Shown here: positions 4,444 to 62,315 of the stretch, in pieces | Numbering within the stretch: the first letter of the stretch is position 1 | Layout of the letters: the number at the start of each line of letters is the position of its first letter | DNA from: a virus | Strand: one strand, 5' to 3' | Length of the DNA: 64,000 bases | IMG/VR virus record: IMGVR_UViG_3300017782_004332 | Location: 1-64,000 of that record | Notes under the pieces: generated by a model | The model's input: the letters and a program-made list of their open reading frames with translations, nothing else | The model's database searches: none | What the model was told of the DNA's origin: nothing | Program-made: the position numbers and the translations under genes

Positions 4444-4508
4444 GACTAAATAATAATACAACGTTCAGGCGACATAGCCCGGAAGTAAGCAACTATGCTG
4501 AAGGAACG
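4444..4508 (+). promoter_or_regulatory. Late-promoter-like box plus long structured leader
   Basis: GACTAAATAAT is followed by a long stem: TTCAG (4464-4468) pairs with CTGAA (4498-4502), and CATAG (4473-4477) with CTATG (4493-4497); CGTT/AACG extends the base. Same architecture as the leader of the preceding gene but a different sequence. Confidence 0.5.
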
Positions 4509-4534
4509 CACTTAACTGTAAAAAGGAGAGTGTA

Positions 4535-8968: not shown

Positions 8969-8999
8969 CTTGACATTGCTTAGTCAAGTAGTGTATAAT
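8968..8999 (+). promoter_or_regulatory. Sigma70-type promoter with overlapping inverted repeat
   Basis: TTGACA (8970-8975), 18 nt, TATAAT (8994-8999). A perfect inverted repeat ACTTGAC-N8-GTCAAGT (8968-8989) covers the -35 box and could be an operator. Confidence 0.7.
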
Positions 9000-14244: not shown

Positions 14245-15375
14245 ATGAGCAAGAAGGACACACAGAAAAGAATGGTAAAGACAGTATTCAATCGTGAAAA
14301 GGTTGACTTCACAAAGGAACATATGTTTTTTGGAGCAGACCAAAACACACAACGTTATGACGTATTCAAGTATCCAGAATATGACAAACTTAATCAAACA
14401 ATGCTTGGTTATTTTTGGAGACCTGAAGAAGTTAGTTTGCAAAAGGACAGAGGCGACTATGCTGAATTTCGTCCAGAGCAAAAACATATCTTTACAAGTA
14501 ATTTAAAATATCAAACACTGCTCGACAGTGTACAAGGACGTGGTCCTTGTTTAGCATTCTTGCCATACTGTTCTAATCCAGAATTAGAAAGTTGTATTGT
14601 AGCATGGGATTTCTTTGAAACTATTCACAGTCGTTCATATACACACATTGTAAAAAATGTATATGCAAATCCAAGTGAAGTGTTTGACACTATCTTAGAT
14701 GATGAAAAAATTATTGAACGTGCTGAAAGTGTAACAAAAGAATACGATGCATTTAATGAAATTGCAAATCAATATTTTCAACATGGTAAAGGAACACTTT
14801 ACGAAGTTAAAAAATCTTTGTACAAAGCAATGATGACTGTAAACATCTTAGAAGGTTTACGTTTTTATGTTTCATTTGCATGTACATTTGCATTTGGTGA
14901 ATTGAAACTCATGGAAGGATCAGCAAAGATTATTTCGTTGATTGCCCGTGATGAAGCAACACACCTTAACCTATCAACACATATCCTAAAGCATTGGGCA
15001 AAAGGAGACGATGATCCAGACTTTGTAAAAATTGCAAAAGAGTGTGAGGACGAGATCTACGACATGTGGCGTCAATGTGTTGAAGAAGAAAAAAATTGGG
15101 CAGACTACTTGTTTAAAGACGGCAGTATGATCGGACTCAATGCTAATCTACTACATGCTTATGTTGAGTTTATTGCAAACAAAAGACTAAAAGCATTAGG
15201 ATTAAAAACTATTTACGATCGTCCACTAAATCAAAACCCTCTACCATGGACACAACACTGGTTATCTAGTGCTGGACTTCAAGTTGCTCCACAAGAAACT
15301 GAAGTTGAAAGTTATATCGTTGGTGGATTAAAACAAGACATTGAAGAAGATACTTTTAAAGGATTTGAACTATGA
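14245..15375 (+). CDS. nrdB: Ribonucleoside-diphosphate reductase beta subunit
   Basis: 376 residues. Provides the diiron-tyrosyl radical for NrdA. The E-T-I-H-S-R-S-Y motif contains two iron ligands and the radical tyrosine; ARDEATHL supplies further ligands; the C-terminal acidic tail docks to NrdA. Nine nucleotides after nrdA and overlapping the glutaredoxin by 4 nt, so co-transcribed. Confidence 0.97.
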   Translation: MSKKDTQKRMVKTVFNREKVDFTKEHMFFGADQNTQRYDVFKYPEYDKLNQTMLGYFWRPEEVSLQKDRGDYAEFRPEQKHIFTSNLKYQTLLDSVQGRGPCLAFLPYCSNPELESCIVAWDFFETIHSRSYTHIVKNVYANPSEVFDTILDDEKIIERAESVTKEYDAFNEIANQYFQHGKGTLYEVKKSLYKAMMTVNILEGLRFYVSFACTFAFGELKLMEGSAKIISLIARDEATHLNLSTHILKHWAKGDDDPDFVKIAKECEDEIYDMWRQCVEEEKNWADYLFKDGSMIGLNANLLHAYVEFIANKRLKALGLKTIYDRPLNQNPLPWTQHWLSSAGLQVAPQETEVESYIVGGLKQDIEEDTFKGFEL

Positions 15376-15623
15376 TTACTATATACGGAAAACCACAGTG
15401 TCCATTTTGCGACAAAGCAAAAAATCTTTGTGAACAAAGAGGATACAAATATGAATACAAAACATTAGGCAAAGATTATCAAATAGAGGAATTGCTTGAA
15501 ACTTTTCCTGGTGCTAAAACAGTACCACAAATTATTATTAACAGCCAGAAAGTTGGGGGATTTAACGATTTCGAAAATTATCTTGAAGACACAGGCTATA
15601 ACGGAACAGGACACGGACAATAA
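15372..15623 (+). CDS. Glutaredoxin (NrdC/NrdH-type electron donor)
   Basis: 83 residues with CPFC active site near the N-terminus (residues 10-13), the cis-proline region TVPQI and a GGFNDF glutathione-binding-like segment. Reduces NrdA during turnover. Overlaps nrdB (ATGA). Confidence 0.93.
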   Translation: MITIYGKPQCPFCDKAKNLCEQRGYKYEYKTLGKDYQIEELLETFPGAKTVPQIIINSQKVGGFNDFENYLEDTGYNGTGHGQ

Positions 15624-17015: not shown

Positions 17016-17091
17016 AACTCTCCTTTGGTTAGTTGTTGGGCGTTTTCTTGAGCATTAGTTATCATTTTTTTTTAAAATACGCACTTTATGG

Positions 17092-17120
17092 TTGACAACA
17101 TATGTAAAAGGTGCTATAAA
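17092..17120 (+). promoter_or_regulatory. Consensus sigma70 promoter of the tmRNA locus
   Basis: TTGACA (17092-17097), 17 nt, TATAAA (17115-17120) with an extended TG before the -10. Start of transcription expected near 17127, just upstream of the tmRNA acceptor piece. Confidence 0.85.
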
Positions 17121-17129
17121 TATAAGTGT

Positions 17130-17193
17130 AATTGTTGACAGCATCGTATGTCACAAGAACAGGACCCGGGGGCGGTACCCGGCGCCTCCACCA
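17130..17193 (+). ncRNA. ssrA: Permuted tmRNA, acceptor RNA piece
   Basis: Ends with CGCCTCC-A-CCA. CGCCTCC (17183-17189) pairs perfectly with GGGGGCG at 17392-17398, the 5' end of the coding piece. A T-arm stem CCGGG/CCCGG with a GGCGGTA loop precedes it, and ACAAG upstream can pair with CTTGT of the coding piece (helix P2). Order acceptor-then-coding is the circular permutation typical of alphaproteobacteria. The exact 5' end is not determined. Confidence 0.88.
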
Positions 17194-17212
17194 TAAACAC
17201 ATGGAGTTAAAA

Positions 17213-17404
17213 ATGGTAGTAGATTTTAAGGAAAAATGTAGGATTTATTACATGGTAAAAGGCAATTTAGTAGGATTAAGCAAAAAGCAAATTGAAGAAT
17301 CCTACGATAGTTACTTTAAAAGACTCTGGGGAAACCATGAAGCAGTGTACAGAGAACAAGGCTTCGAAGAAAACTATCGTGTGTTTATGATGGGGGCGAA
17401 ATAG
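17213..17404 (+). CDS. Small protein nested in the tmRNA intervening segment
   Basis: 63 residues from ATG 17213, six nucleotides after GGAG; ATG 17201 would add four residues. It occupies the spacer that is normally removed between the two pieces of a permuted tmRNA, and its last 13 nt, including the stop codon, lie inside the mature coding RNA (5' end 17392). Composition (charged, Tyr-rich, DFKEKCRIYYMVKGN) looks protein-like and codon use matches neighbours. No family recognised. Translation and RNA processing should compete. Confidence 0.6.
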   Translation: MVVDFKEKCRIYYMVKGNLVGLSKKQIEESYDSYFKRLWGNHEAVYREQGFEENYRVFMMGAK

Positions 17405-17600
17405 GATCGACTGGCTTGTTAAGGGTGAAAGAGATTACCGGTAAGGAACGACCGAGCGTATATGGGGAGACTCATGCTACTGTCCAAAACTATAACTGCA
17501 AACGATAATTTTGCATCTGAAGAGTTACGCCTAGCGGCTTAATTCGACGGGGTTGGCAACTTACCTGGCAACAGAAAAGTTGCGTTTTACTAGACGCAAA
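17392..17600 (+). ncRNA. ssrA: Permuted tmRNA, coding RNA piece with ANDNFASEELRLAA tag
   Basis: 5' GGGGGCG completes the acceptor stem; GGATCGACTGG is the D-loop analogue. The tag reading frame starts with GCA at 17498 and stops at TAA 17540-17542: ANDNFASEELRLAA, an alphaproteobacterial-type AND... tag ending in a hydrophobic LAA degron recognised by ClpX. Downstream repeats of GTTGC/GGCAAC can form pseudoknots; a TTGCGT/ACGCAA hairpin (17580-17599) may mark the 3' end, which is approximate. Acts in ribosome rescue and tagging for proteolysis. Confidence 0.93.
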
Positions 17601-27801: not shown

Positions 27802-29050
27802 TAAAAATTACCTCTGTGATTTTTGTGGTAAAAAACGAGATGAAGTACACAAACTTATAGTTGGCAATGGCGCTTCAATTTGTAATGAATGCATTGACCT
27901 TTGCAGTAATATTCTAGCAGAAGAAAAGTCTGTTAGTATTAATAAAGCAAACAAAAACCAAGTTGACTTAACTACTCTTGATCCGCTTACAGTTAAAAAT
28001 ATTCTTGACCAACATGTTATAGGACAAGAAGATGCAAAAATATCTTTAAGTGTAGCAGTAGCACAACACTATAAAAAATTATTCAATCCTAGCACAGATT
28101 TAAAACTAGATAAAACAAATGTAATGTTAATGGGTCCAACTGGGTCAGGCAAGACATTGTTAGCACAAACTATTGCAGACTATCTTGGAGTTCCGTTTGC
28201 TATCTGTGATGCAACAACACTTACAGAAGCAGGATACGTCGGAGACGATGTTGAAAGCATTATAACAAGATTAGTTACTGAGGCCGACGGTAATGTTGAA
28301 CTTGCAGAAAAAGGTATTGTGTTTATTGATGAAATAGATAAAGTTACTAAAAAGCAACAAAACGTGTCAGTTACAAGAGACGTAAGTGGCGAAGGTGTAC
28401 AACAAGGTTTACTTAAAATTATTGAAGGTACCAAAATTAGATTATCCGCGGCAGGTGCAAAACGGAAGAATCCACAAGCAGACGTATTAGATATTGATAC
28501 TAAAAATATGTTGTTTATTGTTGGTGGAGCCTTTATTGGATTAGAAAAAGTTATCGATGATAGATTAAACAAAGGCGGTATTGGATTTGGTGTTGATATT
28601 GTTGACGAAAGTAAAACAGGTGACTTATCATTAGTTGAGCCAGAAGATTTAATCAAATATGGGTTCATTCCAGAGTTTATTGGTCGTTTTGGATTAATTA
28701 CCGACGTAAAAGAGTTGACAGAATCTCAATTAGTTAGTATAATGAAAGAACCTAAAAACGCATTGTATAAACAATACAAATATTTGTTTAAGATTGACAA
28801 TGTAGATTTAGAGATTACTAATGATGCTATGAGTTATATCGCAGAAAAGGCAAAAAAATTGAAGACTAATGCTAGAGGTATAAAAGCAATATTAGAAAAT
28901 ATTTTATTAAAATGGCAGTTTCAATCTACCAGTTTAGTAAAAGACGGCTTAACTGGAATTACAATTAACAAAGAAGCAGTTGATAACCCAGAAAAGGCAA
29001 TAACAGTGTATAATACTAAGAAGAAAGAGGAAAATGGCAAAAAACTTTAA
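27776..29050 (+). CDS. clpX: ClpX, AAA+ unfoldase of ClpXP
   Basis: 424 residues, full length. N-terminal zinc-binding domain with C14/C17 and C36/C39; Walker A GPTGSGKT (120-127); pore-1 loop GYVG; Walker B VFIDEID; sensor and arginine-finger region FIGRFG; and an IGF tripeptide (GGIGFGV), the loop that docks ClpP. So it should unfold ssrA-tagged and other substrates and feed ClpP. The phage also carries clpP, a ClpP-like gene, clpS and the tmRNA. Divergence from a host copy cannot be judged here. Confidence 0.97.
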   Translation: MSKETTTNNKNYLCDFCGKKRDEVHKLIVGNGASICNECIDLCSNILAEEKSVSINKANKNQVDLTTLDPLTVKNILDQHVIGQEDAKISLSVAVAQHYKKLFNPSTDLKLDKTNVMLMGPTGSGKTLLAQTIADYLGVPFAICDATTLTEAGYVGDDVESIITRLVTEADGNVELAEKGIVFIDEIDKVTKKQQNVSVTRDVSGEGVQQGLLKIIEGTKIRLSAAGAKRKNPQADVLDIDTKNMLFIVGGAFIGLEKVIDDRLNKGGIGFGVDIVDESKTGDLSLVEPEDLIKYGFIPEFIGRFGLITDVKELTESQLVSIMKEPKNALYKQYKYLFKIDNVDLEITNDAMSYIAEKAKKLKTNARGIKAILENILLKWQFQSTSLVKDGLTGITINKEAVDNPEKAITVYNTKKKEENGKKL

Positions 29051-29294
29051 ACCGCGAACAATGGCTAATTCGACAGACGGAATGGGTATGGGTGTAAGAG
29101 TACAAGGTGACTCACCTGCCGATTTTATGAAAGCACTTCGTAAGTTTAAAAGAAAGGTTGCTGATAGTGGAATACTTCAAGATATGAAGGATAAGCAGTA
29201 CTATCAAAAACCATCTGATAAACGTAGAGAGAAAAAGAAGGCGGCACGAATTAGACAATTAAAGGCAATGAAGATACAAGAAAACAAATATTAG
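29034..29294 (+). CDS. Small basic hypothetical protein
   Basis: 86 residues; N-terminal GMGMGVRVQGDSPADFMKALRKFKRKV, then a strongly basic helix (SDKRREKKKAARIRQLKAMK). Resembles ribosomal-protein-S21-like small basic proteins in layout (helix-turn-basic helix), which is only a suggestion. Overlaps clpX by 17 nt. Confidence 0.55.
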   Translation: MAKNFKPRTMANSTDGMGMGVRVQGDSPADFMKALRKFKRKVADSGILQDMKDKQYYQKPSDKRREKKKAARIRQLKAMKIQENKY

Positions 29295-29841: not shown

Positions 29842-30428
29842 TTAGAGAAGATTACTTTGCTACACCAGTATACCAGTTTGATCTAAAATCAGATAATCAA
29901 CCCTTAATAGATTGGGCATACAAAGTAAATGAACAACCTTTAAATTCTAATGGTGGGAAACAAAGTTTCAATACTGCTGACAAAAAGAATGATGCATCAA
30001 TGCAACATACGTTTCCATTACCATTTCAATATTTACAAAACCAAATACAAGACTATATTAATGAAGTTAGTAACGATTTAAATTTTCCTAAATGTGAATT
30101 ACAAAATTATTGGTTGAATGTAAATCCATATGGTGGATCTAATGATGTACATAATCATCCTAATTCTTTGTTGGTTGCAAATTATTATATAAATGCTACA
30201 ACAGATGATATGGGCGATATTGTTATACATAGGCAAGATGATTCACAATATTATACTAGTGCTATACCTAATAAAACAAATATTACACAAAGATCAATAC
30301 ACATTAAACCTTACACAGGATTGTTAGTAGTATTTCCTGGTTGGGTAAAACATTCTGTTACTACTAATTTGAATGAAGAGAATGATAGAATATCACTGTC
30401 AATGAATTACGGAAGGATAAGATTGTGA
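29838..30428 (+). CDS. Putative 2OG-Fe(II) oxygenase
   Basis: 196 residues. Jelly-roll oxygenase pattern: an HNHP metal-binding segment, INATTDDMGDIVI, and a distal FPGWVKHSV (His ligand) followed by R-I-S-L-S-x-N, matching phage proteins of the putative 2OG-Fe(II) oxygenase type. Substrate unknown. Overlaps both neighbours. Confidence 0.75.
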   Translation: MIREDYFATPVYQFDLKSDNQPLIDWAYKVNEQPLNSNGGKQSFNTADKKNDASMQHTFPLPFQYLQNQIQDYINEVSNDLNFPKCELQNYWLNVNPYGGSNDVHNHPNSLLVANYYINATTDDMGDIVIHRQDDSQYYTSAIPNKTNITQRSIHIKPYTGLLVVFPGWVKHSVTTNLNEENDRISLSMNYGRIRL

Positions 30429-31537
30429 GAATCGAACAAGACATTAAACTAGACTACAAAGACGTACTGTTTAAACCAAAGCGTTCTAAATTAGAAAGCA
30501 GACGTGACGTTGACCTAACTCGTACGTTCAAATTCCATCACGGCAACGAATGGACAGGTGTACCAATCATGTCAAGTAACATGGACGGTGTGGGTACATT
30601 TGAGATGGCTAAAGTATTACAAGAACACAAAATGATCACTGTAATGAGAAAGCACTATTCAGTTGATGACTGGAAAGAACAGAGTCAAGGTGTTAAGATG
30701 AAGTACCTTAGTGTTTGTACAGGTACAGGAGTTATTTGGGATAAAGATGCAAAAGACTATGCTACTATGAAAGCAGTATTAGAAATGTATCCAGACATCA
30801 AGTTTATCACAGTTGATGTTGCAAATGCTTATCATGAAAACTATGCAGACTTTATTGCAAGAGTTAGAGATGCATACCCAGACAAAACTATTATTGCAGG
30901 TAACGTTATCTCAGCAGAGATGACAGAAGAACTTATTATCAAAGGTGCTGACATTGTCAAGTGTGGTATTGGTCCAGGATCAGTATGTACTACACGACTA
31001 ATGACAGGTGTTGGTGTACCGCAACTATCAGGCATTATTGAATGTGCTGATGCGGCCAACGGTATTGGTGGACACATTATTGCAGACGGAGGTTGTGTGT
31101 ATCCAGGTGATGTAAGTAAAGCCTTTGGTGCAGGTGCTCACTTTGTTATGCTTGGCGGTATGTTAGCAGGACACAAAGAAGGTGGCGGTAACGTTATTAC
31201 AAAACATACATCAACAGGAGGTGCTCATAAGTTAGACAATGGAACTTATGTTCCGCACTTTGCTGAACAGAGTTTTGTTGAATTCTACGGAATGAGTTCA
31301 GATGCGGCTATGGCAACACATGGTACACGTAAAGATGGATACAGAGGTGCTGAAGGCAAACTTGTTTCTATTCCGTACAAAGGAGAAGTAGAAGGTACAT
31401 TAACAGAAATACTTGGTGGCCTAAGATCTACTTGCACATATATTGGTGCAAAACGCATTAAGGATATGCCAAAGTGTACAACATTTGTAAGATGTACACA
31501 ACAAGTTAACCAAGTATTCAATCAATATAACAGTTAA
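30425..31537 (+). CDS. guaC: GMP reductase
   Basis: 370 residues from GTG 30425. TIM-barrel of the IMPDH/GMPR family; GIGPGSVCTTR holds the catalytic Cys188; IIADGGCVYPGDVSKAFGAGA and FYGMSSD...GTRKDGYRGAEGK match GuaC rather than IMPDH, and no CBS domains are present. Converts GMP to IMP with NADPH, which would help redirect guanine nucleotides to adenine for an AT-rich phage genome. Confidence 0.92.
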   Translation: MRIEQDIKLDYKDVLFKPKRSKLESRRDVDLTRTFKFHHGNEWTGVPIMSSNMDGVGTFEMAKVLQEHKMITVMRKHYSVDDWKEQSQGVKMKYLSVCTGTGVIWDKDAKDYATMKAVLEMYPDIKFITVDVANAYHENYADFIARVRDAYPDKTIIAGNVISAEMTEELIIKGADIVKCGIGPGSVCTTRLMTGVGVPQLSGIIECADAANGIGGHIIADGGCVYPGDVSKAFGAGAHFVMLGGMLAGHKEGGGNVITKHTSTGGAHKLDNGTYVPHFAEQSFVEFYGMSSDAAMATHGTRKDGYRGAEGKLVSIPYKGEVEGTLTEILGGLRSTCTYIGAKRIKDMPKCTTFVRCTQQVNQVFNQYNS

Positions 31538-32335: not shown

Positions 32336-32742
32336 GCTACTCGTTCGCCTGCTTTGACTCTTCTTGCATGTTCTTCAACTGATCCTGGATATCTCCACGC
32401 CCATATTGCAACACCTAACATAAATGCTCCTGACCATAGGACTGCGTTTACATTACCTGTCGCAAAAAACGTAAATGCCAAAGTTGACGACATTACTATT
32501 ACCATTGCATATTTTCCTTTAGTAGGAAAAACTCTTTTACCTGTCCAGTTAGTTAAAAACTTACCAAACCATGGATGGTTGTATAACCATTTTTCCATCT
32601 TAGGTGAACTCTTTGCAAACGCCCAGGCCGCGATTACTAAGAAGATTGAAAAGGGAATTCCTGGCGTAACAAATCCTATGTAGGCCATACCTACACAGAA
32701 AAAACCAATTGCTTGGTACATATATTTTTTTATTGTATTCAT
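32323..32742 (-). CDS. DUF454 (YbaN-type) membrane protein
   Basis: 139 residues with three to four membrane helices and the family signature GFVTPGIPFSIFLVIAAWAFAKSSPK followed by LYNHPWFG. DUF454 genes sit next to heme-related genes in some bacteria, which fits the overlap (4 nt) with the ALAS gene here. A role in tetrapyrrole handling is inference from position. Confidence 0.78.
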   Translation of the reverse strand: MNTIKKYMYQAIGFFCVGMAYIGFVTPGIPFSIFLVIAAWAFAKSSPKMEKWLYNHPWFGKFLTNWTGKRVFPTKGKYAMVIVMSSTLAFTFFATGNVNAVLWSGAFMLGVAIWAWRYPGSVEEHARRVKAGERVAWLK

Positions 32743-33929
32743 AAAATTTTGTGCCTTTCTAACACTACAAGTAATTTATCCACAAGTTCGTCCATCATAG
32801 CGTTAGTGTGATTAGGCGTAGGAGTAAAACGTAGTCTTTCTGTACCTACGTCAACTGTCGGATAGTTAATAGGCTGTACGTATATACCGTCTTTGTACAG
32901 CAAGTCATCGGATATCTGCTTACACTTAACAGCGTCTCCAATCATCACAGGTACTATATGACTAGGATTATCTAGTACAGGAATACCCGCGGATTTAAAT
33001 TTGTCCTTTAATGTAGTTGCTCTATCCATAATTTCATCACGTAGATTTGGATGTTCTTTTACGTATCGAATTGACGCAAGAGCACCTGCACACAATACAG
33101 GACTTAAACTAGTAGTGAATATAAATGCTGGTGCTAATGATCTAATAGCATCTATAAAAGGTGTCTTAGACGCAATATAACCGCCCTGTACACCGAATGC
33201 TTTCGCTAGGGTGCCGTTTACTATATCAACATCTATGTTGTCTCGTTCAGTAACACCCCCGCCATTTTTACCATATAACCCAACTCCATGAACTTCGTCC
33301 AAATAGGTCAATGCATCATACTTCTTACACAGTTTTACAATTTCTTTAATAGGACTTATATCACCATCCATGCTATAAACAGATTCGAACACAACCATTT
33401 TGGTTCCTTTTATCTGTTTTAGTTTTAATTCTAATTCTTGTAAATCATTATGCGACCAAATTACTTTGTTAGCACGACTATGTCTAATACCTTGTATAAT
33501 ACTAGAATGATTTTTACTATCACTAATAAATGTAATATCAGGAATAATTTTAGCAATAGTTTCTAATGTAGTTTCGTTGGCATTGAAAGCACTTGTAAAA
33601 AGTAATGCACTTTCTTTTTTATGCAACTTTGCTATCTCGGCTTCTAATGCTACATGGTAATGAGTTGTCCCAGATATGTTTCTAGTTCCACCACTACCTG
33701 CACCTGCTGTGTCTAATGCTGTTCTCATAGCATCTAAAACAAACTGATGCTGACCCATACCTAAGTAATCGTTCGAACACCAATTTACTATTTTTTTAAT
33801 TGCATATTTTGAATACCAAATAGCATTAGGAAAGTCACCGCAGTCACGCAGGATATCATTAAACACCCTATACTTTCCATCAGATTTAAGTTGATCTATA
33901 ACTTCTTCGAATTTTTTAATATTAATCAT
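32739..33929 (-). CDS. hemA: 5-aminolevulinate synthase (ALAS, Shemin pathway)
   Basis: 396 residues, full length. Condenses glycine and succinyl-CoA to 5-aminolevulinate with PLP, the committed step of tetrapyrrole synthesis in alphaproteobacteria. Visible: YRVFNDI near the N-terminus, NDYLGMG glycine loop, HxxH of SKNHSSIIQGIRH, DEVHG (D211/H214, PLP ring), and the Schiff-base K243 in TLAKAFG. ALAS rather than KBL/BioF is favoured by the N-terminal segment. First gene of a minus-strand unit with DUF454; a CTAAATA box lies upstream on the minus strand. Phage-borne ALAS genes have been reported from aquatic phage sequences. Confidence 0.92.
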   Translation of the reverse strand: MINIKKFEEVIDQLKSDGKYRVFNDILRDCGDFPNAIWYSKYAIKKIVNWCSNDYLGMGQHQFVLDAMRTALDTAGAGSGGTRNISGTTHYHVALEAEIAKLHKKESALLFTSAFNANETTLETIAKIIPDITFISDSKNHSSIIQGIRHSRANKVIWSHNDLQELELKLKQIKGTKMVVFESVYSMDGDISPIKEIVKLCKKYDALTYLDEVHGVGLYGKNGGGVTERDNIDVDIVNGTLAKAFGVQGGYIASKTPFIDAIRSLAPAFIFTTSLSPVLCAGALASIRYVKEHPNLRDEIMDRATTLKDKFKSAGIPVLDNPSHIVPVMIGDAVKCKQISDDLLYKDGIYVQPINYPTVDVGTERLRFTPTPNHTNAMMDELVDKLLVVLERHKIL

Positions 33930-39485: not shown

Positions 39486-41111
<1,626 letters not shown>

Positions 41112-46566: not shown

Positions 46567-48618
46567 TTATTTGGTTGTTGCTATAAAGACGCCGTTCCAG
46601 TCTTTAGGTAAGTCTTGTGTTTTCTGATATTTACAACGTTCAATCCACATATCATAATAAGCATCCATTTGTCCATCAAATTGTCCTTTAAGGTCTTTAC
46701 ACATTTTAATAGCAATATCAAAACGTTGATCTTTATATTCTTTGTGCATATGATCGTGTAGTTCTTTTGCCTTAGCATGATCTTTTATAACAATATCTAA
46801 TACTGTCCATATACCTATTCCTACACTCTTGCCTTTAACAGCAAGATCATCTACTTTTAAGTAGAAGAAATCATTCTTAGTTGCTTTATAAGTTGTTTCA
46901 CCTACTAATAGCAAACATCCGTATTCTTTACACTTGCTTTCAATTCTTGCGGCTGTGCTGACGGCATCACCAAGTACATCGTAGGAGTGTCTTGCTGTCG
47001 ACCCCATTTCTCCAAGGTAACCAAGTCCGGAGTTAATACCCGCTCCCATACCGATGGCTGGCCTTCCTTCTGCTGTAATTTTTTCATTAAACTTCTCCAC
47101 TGCTCGTAGCATATTCAATCCAGTGCGGACTGCACTCTTAGGATGATCTGGATCATCAAGTGGTGCACCATGTACATGCATACTTGCATCTCCTATATAC
47201 TTAATTATCATTCCGTTTTCGTTTAAAACAGGTAAAGTAATAGCGTCCATATATGAGTTCATAAGTGTTGTCAATCCTTTTACATCATCTCCAAAACTTT
47301 CACCCAAAGGAGTAAAGCCTCTCAGATCACTGAAGCAGATTGAAATTTCTTTCTTCATGCCTTCTTTGATCAGTGCAGGATTTTCTTGTAGCATACGCAC
47401 AACTGTTGGTGATGCATATCCTGCGAACTGTTTCTTAATTGCTTGTTTTTCAAAGAACTCTTTGGAAAATCGATTGAACACAGAATGGAAACCAACAATA
47501 GTAGTTACTAGTACTATCCAACTCCAATCCCATAACTGTAGATGCCCTATAAACGCTGTATAAGCACCGTACACAGGCGCTATGATTACTGTAAGCATAG
47601 TAGTACCAACGACCCAGTAAGGCGCTTTAAACGCTATTATAATTAGAATAAGACCTATAATAGTAGCAGTTATATACTCTAAAAACGTAGCATAATCAAA
47701 ACGTACAATAGTATCCCCATTAATGATAGTTTGGAGACTTGTGCCTATAAGTTCGTGTGCATATCGTTCTCCGTTTGGAGTAGCAATAATACTGCCTATA
47801 CCTTCTGCTGTAGTTCCAATAATAACTGTTTTGCCTGCAAATTGTGTGTAATCTTGTTCTGTTATACTGTAGGTAGGAAACTGCTTGTTCCAACGTAGCC
47901 ATATCTGTCCATTTGCATCTGTTTTGATTGTGGCGTACTTTGGAATACGCATTGCAGTAATACCGCCTTCTTGCGTTTTAACTTGATAACTTGGATCTCC
48001 AACAGCAACTCTGATGGCTTCAATTGCTATAGCAGGATATGTTTCGTTGCCTACACGTACAATAAGTGGCATTCTACGTACAACCCCGTCTATCTCTGAA
48101 CCTGTGTTTAAAACTCCAACACCGTCTGCATTTAATCCTAATAATTCTATTGGTCCTAACATGCCAGGCCATTCAAACAACCATGGCATAGGATCGCCTA
48201 TCTTAGCAACACCTCGTGGTACAGAATTCTTGTTTGCATTTCGCGAACCTACTTGTCCTATGACTACAGCATTACCTACTAATGCTTGAGCAAGTTCCAT
48301 GTCACCACCAAGTCTATCTTCCTCTGAAAATAATATAGGCAGTACAATTACTCCTGCACCTGACTCACGTAACTTCCATATAACATCAGCGAGTACTGAA
48401 CGTTTCCAAGGCCATTGCCCATACTGCTCGATCGCTTTTTCGTCTATCTCAAGTATGGCGATATCTTCGCTAACAACTGGAGTATCGTATTGTTGAACAA
48501 CATCAAATGCTTTTAGTCTCAATAGTTGCTTAACATAAGGATCTGAAAATCCGTATATTGTAAGAAATGCTAAAGTAATCAGGGCGGTTGCCCAGTGGGT
48601 TACATATTTCATACTCAT
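46567..48618 (-). CDS. CHASE2-domain membrane adenylate/guanylate cyclase
   Basis: 683 residues. N-terminal membrane helix (about 8-25), periplasmic CHASE2 sensor (about 30-300, EDIAILEIDEKAIEQYGQWPWKR), three membrane helices (about 310-385), then a class III cyclase domain (about 410-600): metal Asp in CFSDLRGFT and YIGDASMH, substrate Lys in KYIGD, and VLGDAVSTAARIE, where the usual transition-state Asn is replaced by Ser although the Arg remains. Would make cAMP or cGMP on a periplasmic cue. Divergent from the curli operon; FecR/CHASE2-cyclase neighbours are known in bacteria. Confidence 0.93.
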   Translation of the reverse strand: MSMKYVTHWATALITLAFLTIYGFSDPYVKQLLRLKAFDVVQQYDTPVVSEDIAILEIDEKAIEQYGQWPWKRSVLADVIWKLRESGAGVIVLPILFSEEDRLGGDMELAQALVGNAVVIGQVGSRNANKNSVPRGVAKIGDPMPWLFEWPGMLGPIELLGLNADGVGVLNTGSEIDGVVRRMPLIVRVGNETYPAIAIEAIRVAVGDPSYQVKTQEGGITAMRIPKYATIKTDANGQIWLRWNKQFPTYSITEQDYTQFAGKTVIIGTTAEGIGSIIATPNGERYAHELIGTSLQTIINGDTIVRFDYATFLEYITATIIGLILIIIAFKAPYWVVGTTMLTVIIAPVYGAYTAFIGHLQLWDWSWIVLVTTIVGFHSVFNRFSKEFFEKQAIKKQFAGYASPTVVRMLQENPALIKEGMKKEISICFSDLRGFTPLGESFGDDVKGLTTLMNSYMDAITLPVLNENGMIIKYIGDASMHVHGAPLDDPDHPKSAVRTGLNMLRAVEKFNEKITAEGRPAIGMGAGINSGLGYLGEMGSTARHSYDVLGDAVSTAARIESKCKEYGCLLLVGETTYKATKNDFFYLKVDDLAVKGKSVGIGIWTVLDIVIKDHAKAKELHDHMHKEYKDQRFDIAIKMCKDLKGQFDGQMDAYYDMWIERCKYQKTQDLPKDWNGVFIATTK

Positions 48619-60447: not shown

Positions 60448-61722
60448 ATGGCATTACCAAAAGGCCCTAGAAAAAAGAAACCTATAGTTAGACGCACCAA
60501 AGGTAACGAACCATCGTACGATGGTGTTGAACAACTAACTGGTAAAGCATACGGTAGTTTTAGATCGGCATGCCAGGACCATTATCGTATGGAATTTAAA
60601 ACTTCAGATTACAAACAATGGACTATAGATTATCTAGAGAATATTGAATACGGAAAATACAAAGACGTTATTAGTATTGTAAAAAAGAATCCAGATAATA
60701 ATTTTAGTTCGACACTTGGCGGTCTTTGTAGAATGCGTTTAAAGGGTGTTGCTGATTACAACGAAGAGTATGATACCTATTGGCAGTCATTGCCTGGTAC
60801 TAGTGGTTTTGTAAAACCAATGAGTGCGTTTATTCAACGACAGATAGAAGAATTAAAAGAAAAAGGCAATGCCATTGTTGAAATTAAGCAACAAGAAAAA
60901 AAGAAAGAAGAAGAAAAGCCAAAAAAATATATTCCAACTATACAAGAAAGAATACAAATGGCAATCCCAGCAATGACTGATCAATTTGAAGATGCTATTG
61001 ACGAGTTTGCAATGCAAAGCAGATTAGACTTTAAAGATATTAAACCTTTAACAATATTCCGTCAGCGTGATGTTAAACAACCACATGCAAAGATTATTGC
61101 AGAAATATACGAACCTGCACTAGCAGAAATGCGAGAACTGTTAAATCCGCCTGTATTAAAAACAGAACATGATAAAGATTTTCATCAACAATTAAAAGAT
61201 GGTTATTCACATTACGATAAAAAACAAATTAAAAAGTTATATGAATTTTATTCTTCAATAATTACTGCCTGTGATGGTATCATTGCAGAACGTAAGGCTA
61301 GCCGTAAACCACGTAAATTGAGTGTTAAGGCCCCAGAAAAAGTAGTAGCCAAATTGAAATATAAAGTTAGTGACGCAACATATGGAGCAAGTATCGAACC
61401 ACATAAATTCATTATGGCAAATATGTTGGTAATTTTTAATTGCAAAAATAGGAAATTGGGCGTATACTATACTAATAATGAAGATCCATTGGGCCAAAAA
61501 AGAGACGGTACTGGTCTTTATTTGAAAGGACAAACTATCCAACGATTTGATGAAAAGACATCGGTATGGAAAGTGTTACGTAAACCACAAATACAACTTG
61601 AGGAAATGCGTAATTTAAATACAAGACGTAAATTTGAAAACTGGTGGAGTACTGTTAAAACTACTGAGACTAAGATGAATGGCAGAATTAACCCAGAAAC
61701 AATATTGATAGGAGTATATTGA
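60448..61722 (+). CDS. Conserved-type phage protein of unknown function
   Basis: 424 residues. Basic N-terminus ([15 protein letters not shown]), a helical K/E-rich central part including a charged coiled-coil-like linker (about 140-170), and a C-terminal half (about 270-424) with [40 protein letters not shown]. Similar proteins are found in T4-like marine phages; no function known to me. Overlaps clpP by 4 nt and so is co-expressed with it; TATAAT-like sequence upstream. Confidence 0.65.
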
Positions 61723-62315
61723 TGAGTAACCTAGTACCTATGGTGGTTGAAAAATCACATGACGGAGAAAGAGCCTATGACATTTTTAGTCGTTTGCTTA
61801 AAGATCGTATCGTTTTTTTAAACGGTCCGGTGCATGACGGTGTAGCACATAGTTTAACTGCACAACTAATTTTATTAGAATCAGATAGTGGAACAAAACC
61901 GATCCACTTTTATATTAATTCACCGGGTGGTGTAGTAAGCAGTGGTATGGCAATTTATGATACAATGCAATATATCAAGTCTCCTGTTTATACATATGTT
62001 ATGGGTCAAGCGGCATCAATGGGATCTTTACTTGCTCAGGCAGGTGATCCAGGACACAGGTATATGTTGCCACATGCAAGACACATGATTCACCAACCAA
62101 GCGGTGGTGCTAGTGGTCAAGCAACTGATATTCAAATTCATGCAGAAGAAATTATCAAACTTAAAAAAGAATTAACAGAAATATATGTTAAGCATAATTC
62201 AAAAGAAAAAACATTTGATGATTTAAGTAATGATATGGAACGTGATAAGTTTATGACTGCCTCAGAAGCACTTGAATACGGACTTATTGATGAAATCTTT
62301 GAAAGGAGAGACTGA
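61719..62315 (+). CDS. clpP: ClpP protease subunit
   Basis: 198 residues, canonical. Triad visible: Ser99 (GQAASMGS), His124 (HMIHQP) and the Asp of MERDKFM near the end; INSPGG and YDTMQYI helices normal. N-terminal propeptide is short. Forms the tetradecameric barrel that partners ClpX. Co-transcribed with the 424-aa protein. Together with clpX, clpS and the ClpP-like gene gives the phage its own protease set. Confidence 0.97.

Follow-up and report, generated by a model that had tools for sequence, protein, structure and literature searches.

Few bacterial RNAs have been studied as well as tmRNA, whose permuted form has so far been regarded as two pieces and a discarded spacer. The locus at 17092–17600 of the DNA analysed here raises the question of whether that spacer can also carry a gene. 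The DNA is a stretch of 64,000 nucleotides (the window), part of a 104,925-bp IMG/VR virus record. The locus very probably gives rise to one transcript with two products, a two-piece tmRNA precursor and the mRNA for a 63-residue protein encoded in the intervening segment (IVS). Protein genes have repeatedly been stored in this spacer by marine phages; the genes are under selection, and a cultured isolate also has one, so that a single RNA would be both tmRNA precursor and mRNA.

The permuted tmRNA and its nested reading frame

The locus is a complete circularly permuted tmRNA of the alphaproteobacterial type on a phage record (Table 1). Positions 17088–17586 match the alphaproteobacterial model RF01849 (alpha_tmRNA), whose use had been proposed in the original prediction, with 114.2 bits (E = 2e-30; gathering score 50). 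The match is not a fragment and spans model positions 1–355 of 355. The model RF04321 (tmRNA_permuted) matches the locus with 104.4 bits. ARAGORN reports a permuted tmRNA and returns the same tag as the original prediction, ANDNFASEELRLAA, which has an alanine resume codon and an LAA-type end. The acceptor piece lies upstream, the coding piece lies downstream and the CCA is encoded. The perfect pairing originally claimed between the ends of the two pieces is found: CGCCTCC (17183–17189) of the acceptor CGCCTCC-A-CCA (17183–17193) and the 5' strand GGGGGCG (17392–17398) form 7 of 7 pairs, a 7-bp acceptor stem that includes G3:U70. The G3:U70 pair is the alanine identity pair. In the RF01849 alignment no pseudoknot pairs are shown for the window tmRNA, which also lacks a stretch of the consensus 3' of the tag. 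The precursor has a folding z of −5.6.

Table 1. Features of the tmRNA locus and related genes in the window (window positions).
Feature	Start	End	Strand	Basis and remarks
sigma70-like promoter: TTGACA 17092–17097, 17-nt spacer, TATAAA 17115–17120	17092	17120	+	sequence pattern, predicted
tmRNA 3' (acceptor) piece, ends CGCCTCC-A-CCA	17128	17193	+	RF04321 match start 17128, ARAGORN; mature 5' end unmapped
IVS, 198 nt	17194	17391	+	ARAGORN and custom detector; removal from mature tmRNA presumed
closing helix, 5' strand TAAACACATG	17194	17203	+	pairs with 17378–17387; covariation
Shine-Dalgarno (SD) GGAG of nested ORF	17203	17206	+	sequence; abuts the IVS-closing helix
nested ORF, 63 aa, family A	17213	17404	+	viral-contig relatives; dN/dS < 1; IVS ORFs controlled by shuffling and antisense
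closing helix, 3' strand CGTGTGTTTA	17378	17387	+	also codes the end of the nested ORF; covariation
tmRNA 5' (mRNA-like) piece, starts GGGGGCG	17392	17590	+	RF01849 match to 17586; 3' end approximate
tag reading frame ANDNFASEELRLAA*	17498	17542	+	ARAGORN
glycine-zipper protein gene, downstream of tmRNA	17611	18054	+	PF05433
phage ClpX, zinc-binding domain and AAA module	27776	29050	+	NF003745 512 bits vs cut-off 359; PDB ClpX matches E 2e-121
second, divergent ClpP homologue	56225	56788	+	PF00574 100.7 bits; no NCBIfam cut-off reached
phage ClpP	61722	62315	+	PF00574 256.8 bits; NF001368 295 bits vs cut-off 249

A strong sigma70 promoter had also been noted at the start of the locus. The predicted promoter is present and agrees with the consensus at 11 of 12 positions; a standard promoter scan missed it because its rule accepts only T as the sixth base of the −10 box. 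By pattern search, the window holds five TTGACA-N16-18-TATAA sites against 0.43 expected by chance. The promoter-like sites, at 8970, 17092, 28715, 39098 and 56187, are all on the + strand. The glycine-zipper gene downstream probably shares the tmRNA transcript.

The segment between the two pieces exists as originally described, but its coding nature had been missed. The nested frame starts with ATG at 17213 and ends with TAG at 17402–17404, 13 bases beyond the IVS and in the mature 5' piece. Its product is MVVDFKEKCRIYYMVKGNLVGLSKKQIEESYDSYFKRLWGNHEAVYREQGFEENYRVFMMGAK*, and we will use the term family A for this protein and its relatives. AlphaFold gives a four-helix model of the 63-residue protein (pLDDT 81). 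No significant match to family A was obtained in PHROGs, Pfam or PDB sequences or in PDB and viral fold searches, and tblastn found neither family A nor a second IVS family, B, in cultured phages. Among viral-contig candidates, tblastn confirmed 254 relatives of family A, which in marine viral contigs are located inside IVSs, just upstream of tmRNAs or free-standing. The nested arrangement is seen in about nine distinct contigs. Of the non-nested copies near a tmRNA, duplicate contigs included, 44 precede it on the same strand, 5 follow it and 5 are encoded on the opposite strand. Between the window-type copy L002 and L003, dS is 2.2 and dN is 0.27. The synteny with tmRNA suggests that the protein acts at the stage of infection at which the tmRNA does. 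It is most likely a small accessory protein of the phage, and its supply would be tied to tmRNA synthesis during infection. In four nested copies (L180, L331, L334 and L335) the frame is conserved and no ATG, GTG or TTG start lies within reach. Downstream of the SD (GAGG), ATA is the one codon that could plausibly serve as start, and its position does not differ among these copies.

A related phage contig of 82.6 kb (G036) carries a near-identical tmRNA with a tag identical to that of the window. Its IVS is about 42 nt long and empty; the closing sequences TAAACACAT and GTGTTTATGAT are kept and the acceptor stem is compensated. The ORF of the window is thus an accessory occupant of a tmRNA that is anatomically complete without it. 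This empty site also fits a different reading, to which we give slightly less than an even chance, namely that small accessory genes settle in the IVS as a permissive landing site, with no regulatory tie to tmRNA maturation. On the family A tree the nested copies need four changes, and well-supported branches force at least two, so nesting arose at least twice. Across all IVSs the encoded proteins form at least 11 clusters plus singletons, and several of them are apparent membrane proteins, which favours the landing-site reading. This reading is compatible with one transcript serving as tmRNA precursor and mRNA, except for the step in which translation and maturation compete. What stands against it is the placement of the SD and stop codons relative to the helix that closes the IVS.

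The closing helix and a probable competition between translation and maturation

In viral and bacterial tmRNAs alike, the ten bases at one end of the IVS pair with the ten at the other. The two ends of one IVS pair with −12.9 kcal/mol on average, against −5.3 kcal/mol for swapped ends (136 non-redundant viral IVSs). Across 135 viral IVSs, pairing is above the independence expectation at every position, and several pair types are found at most positions. At least half of the SD lies within the closing helix in 70% of the ORF-bearing IVSs with a scored SD (n = 43), and about half of the IVS ORFs end beyond the junction; both observations argue for a tie to maturation and against a mere landing site. 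In the window the SD is located beside the core of the helix, not inside it. A universal non-stop mechanism for the IVS ORFs was considered and rejected, since the stop codon lies within the IVS in 22 of them and past the junction in 21, and no single stop-codon mechanism covers them all.

If one transcript has two products, the ends of the precursor would pair, the acceptor stem being continued by the closing helix, and host processing enzymes would excise the IVS. The unprocessed precursor would act as the mRNA from which the 63-residue protein is made. The SD near the closing helix and the stop codon inside the acceptor-stem piece suggest that translation and tmRNA maturation probably compete on one molecule. 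Both uses would hardly be simultaneous, because the SD is paired in the helix and so many of the ORFs run past the junction.

A more far-reaching proposal, which we consider possible and on balance rather doubtful, is that the precursor is, in marine phages, a regulatory switch between the tmRNA and the IVS protein. A folded and processed precursor would yield tmRNA with the start site hidden, while a ribosome on the IVS gene would open the acceptor stem and block maturation. In loci whose stop codon belongs to the mature piece, the processed transcript would become a non-stop message for the tmRNA itself to clear, an ArfA-like feedback. In the lineage of the window the switch would in addition be coupled to the phage's own ClpXP.

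Phage ClpX and ClpP and the proposed fate of tagged peptides

The window phage is unusual in bringing its own ClpX and ClpP. The ClpX has the zf-C4_ClpX domain, the GYVG pore loop and the IGF loop (GIGF). In E. coli ClpX, the RKH loop is involved in recognition of the ssrA tag. The corresponding position reads KRKNPQ (His to Asn) in the ClpX of both the window and G036, and RKN in place of RKH is a possible change of specificity. The ribosomal protein S21 gene (29034–29294, + strand) is located directly 3' of clpX. The ClpP at 61722–62315 retains the catalytic contexts of Ser (GQAASMGS), His (HMIHQP) and Asp (DMERDKF). Its scores against the head-maturation model (109, cut-off 120) and the equivalog TIGR00493 (259, cut-off 309) both stay below the thresholds.

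G036 encodes a ClpX that is 76% identical to that of the window and two ClpPs, and another phage with a nested ORF, G027, has a ClpX as well. The link to ClpXP appears to be lineage-specific, since a search of other tmRNA-bearing contigs found no ClpX in most of them; a ClpP-family match was obtained in 4 of 26 such contigs. SmpB was found neither in the window's record, which is possibly incomplete, nor in nine other records, so the host SmpB would be needed. SspB was likewise not found in the window's possibly incomplete record.

With these components, the alanine-charged tmRNA and host SmpB would tag the peptides of stalled ribosomes with ANDNFASEELRLAA for ClpXP, and the phage's own ClpX and ClpP would serve the degradation of the tagged peptides. 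The suggestion in the original prediction that the phage redirects ribosome rescue thus gains real support from the two Clp proteins, and such redirection may take place during infection. The accompanying suggestion of a degron of the phage's own is weak, as its LAA end does not set the tag apart from ordinary ones. A phage with tmRNA, ClpX and ClpP would itself supply most of what tagging and degradation require, and what phages gain from a tmRNA becomes a question for genetics.

A phage tmRNA could instead be a decoy or inhibitor of host trans-translation and not a working tmRNA. There is a precedent in the tag-less phage tmRNA of DS6A, which inhibits endogenous tmRNA in E. coli (PMC11915505), and the failure to find a phage SmpB in the window's record and the nine others would agree with such a role. 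However, the tag frame, the resume codon region, G3:U70 and CCA have been preserved, both in the window tmRNA and in nearly all of its ORF-bearing relatives, and the ClpX and ClpP genes of the phage likewise speak against a decoy. We therefore consider a decoy unlikely and retain the working tmRNA whose precursor doubles as an mRNA.

Spacer genes in other viruses and comparison with known systems

Permuted tmRNAs were collected by two pattern scans blind to ORFs, which gave 190 non-redundant viral sequences. An IVS of at least 95 nt was counted as long, and an ORF was counted when it was SD-led and covered at least 60% of the IVS. Long IVSs are present in 78 of the 190 viral tmRNAs and in 6 of 63 non-redundant bacterial ones, and the median IVS measures 79 nt in viruses and 35.5 nt in bacteria. 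IVS-filling ORFs are found in 32/190 viral and 0/63 bacterial tmRNAs (Fisher p 1e-4), the bacterial sample being the product of one exact-sequence scan, made up mostly of Rhizobiales and other alphaproteobacteria and not drawn from the host of this phage.

When redundancy was removed in a slightly different way, 28 of 74 long IVSs held an SD-led ORF over at least 60% of their length. Shuffling these 74 IVSs leaves a mean of 1.2 ORFs (maximum 4 in 300), shuffling their interiors only leaves a mean of 4.0 (maximum 10), and the antisense strands hold 2. In family B, dS is about 0.5–2.9 and dN 0.07–0.34, with dN/dS mostly near 0.1–0.3; family C has similar dN and dS. As far as sequence comparison reaches, purifying selection, the SDs and the excess over shuffles show that the IVS ORFs are coding. 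A chance open frame in a non-coding spacer, or a by-product of the helix and the fixed junction TGA/TAG, is therefore very improbable and largely refuted by the shuffle and antisense controls, the dN/dS values and the homologous free-standing genes. It would explain why many long IVSs have no SD-led ORF and why bacterial IVSs are mostly non-coding. The junction stop codons also recur, because TGATGGGG and GAAATAG, of which they are part, are conserved RNA motifs.

Several IVSs hold more than one frame. In family B a 23-aa ORF overlaps upstream. The IVSs of L112, L123, L128, L150, L159 and L192 have two overlapping ORFs each and combine a 23–25 aa ORF (..GDSDEE..KKN..) with an apparent membrane protein of 38–44 aa in another frame with its own SD. 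The longest ORF-bearing viral IVS found (L096, 499 nt) has SD-led ORFs of 34 and 120 aa. A bacterial IVS of 184 nt, from a Rhodobiaceae MAG (L273), has a hydrophobic 49-aa ORF with a weak SD below the rule. Four viral contigs (L144, L156, L179 and L195) have an unusually long predicted tag of 29 aa, ANDNALSNVTFVDFSAPVTAVNEDFALAA.

The cultured case is Methylophilales phage Melnitz (MZ577097; PMC9004378), which has an alphaproteobacterial-type permuted tmRNA like that of the window phage. Melnitz grows in culture on OM43 (strain H5P1). Its 142-nt IVS also holds an SD-led ORF, of 54 codons with a product starting MFKWLSK, which is identical across four isolates and lies unannotated inside a tmRNA-only feature. 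The protein is unrelated to that of the window, and the Melnitz genome, unlike the window phage, is without ClpX and ClpP. The tmRNA passages of the Melnitz paper make no mention of an IVS ORF or of Clp genes (PMC9004378). On inspection, no SD-led IVS ORF was seen in HTVC008M, RcXuper, DSS3P8, MD18, Cp1R7A-A1, RcSimone-Hastad, RcRudolph, DSS3_MAL1 or Phosso. The permuted tmRNA of Sinorhizobium phage Phosso (L538) was missed by ARAGORN, and its 410-nt IVS may hold another RNA.

A host-chromosome or chimeric origin of the contig, with a tmRNA belonging to the bacterium, is rejected as extremely unlikely: ClpX, ClpP, GroEL, aminotransferase and GMP reductase genes are common in bacteria, but the DNA belongs to a virus record with tail, RNR and GroEL genes among many phage-family genes, relatives that share its gene set come from virus records too, and the culture-isolated Melnitz has the same locus type. 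The original assignment of a complete permuted tmRNA to a phage is thereby upheld.

The permuted ssrA of alphaproteobacteria was reportedly described by Keiler in 2000. The novelty claimed for a two-piece tmRNA on a phage was overstated, as 53 had already been published among 18,146 phage genomes, 50 of the 53 marine or aquatic, according to the same Melnitz paper (PMC9004378). Alphaproteobacterial ssrA (RF01849/RF04321; PMC11915505) and the window tmRNA share the piece order, acceptor stem, G3:U70, tag type and closing helix, and differ in the IVS, which is short (the median given above) and non-coding in the bacterial sample and 198 nt and coding in the window phage. A 2025 tmRNA database paper counts 11,946 permuted sequences and reports as IVS cargo one tRNA-Ala gene and one repetitive element (PMC11915505). 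These also place extra sequence in the IVS, but each is an isolated instance and neither codes for a protein. Homing endonuclease genes in tmRNA group I introns (PMC11915505) are protein genes that interrupt a tmRNA gene as in the window, but they sit in a self-splicing intron in the T-loop and not in the IVS of a permuted gene, and the window locus has no intron. Huge phages with tmRNA and SmpB (PMC7162821) have been described as taking over translation termination and rescue and have S21 genes, as here; the window phage has ClpX and ClpP but no SmpB, and Clp is unmentioned in the main text of that paper. In a literature search covering few subscription papers, no earlier report of a protein gene in a permuted-tmRNA IVS was found. 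As far as the literature searched shows, the phage tmRNA is of a known kind, and tmRNA genes with a protein gene in the spacer are new as a class.

The record also carries genes for glutaredoxin (15372–15623), GMP reductase (30425–31537), an aminotransferase (32739–33929, − strand) and GroEL (39489–41111). A glutamine riboswitch aptamer (RF01739, 49.3 bits) is found at 4460–4512 on the + strand, at a distance of 12.6 kb from the tmRNA; the Melnitz paper describes the combination of the two elements in one phage as rare (PMC9004378). A CHASE2-sensor adenylate/guanylate cyclase-like protein is encoded at 46567–48618 on the − strand and matches phrog_35576 with 650 bits.
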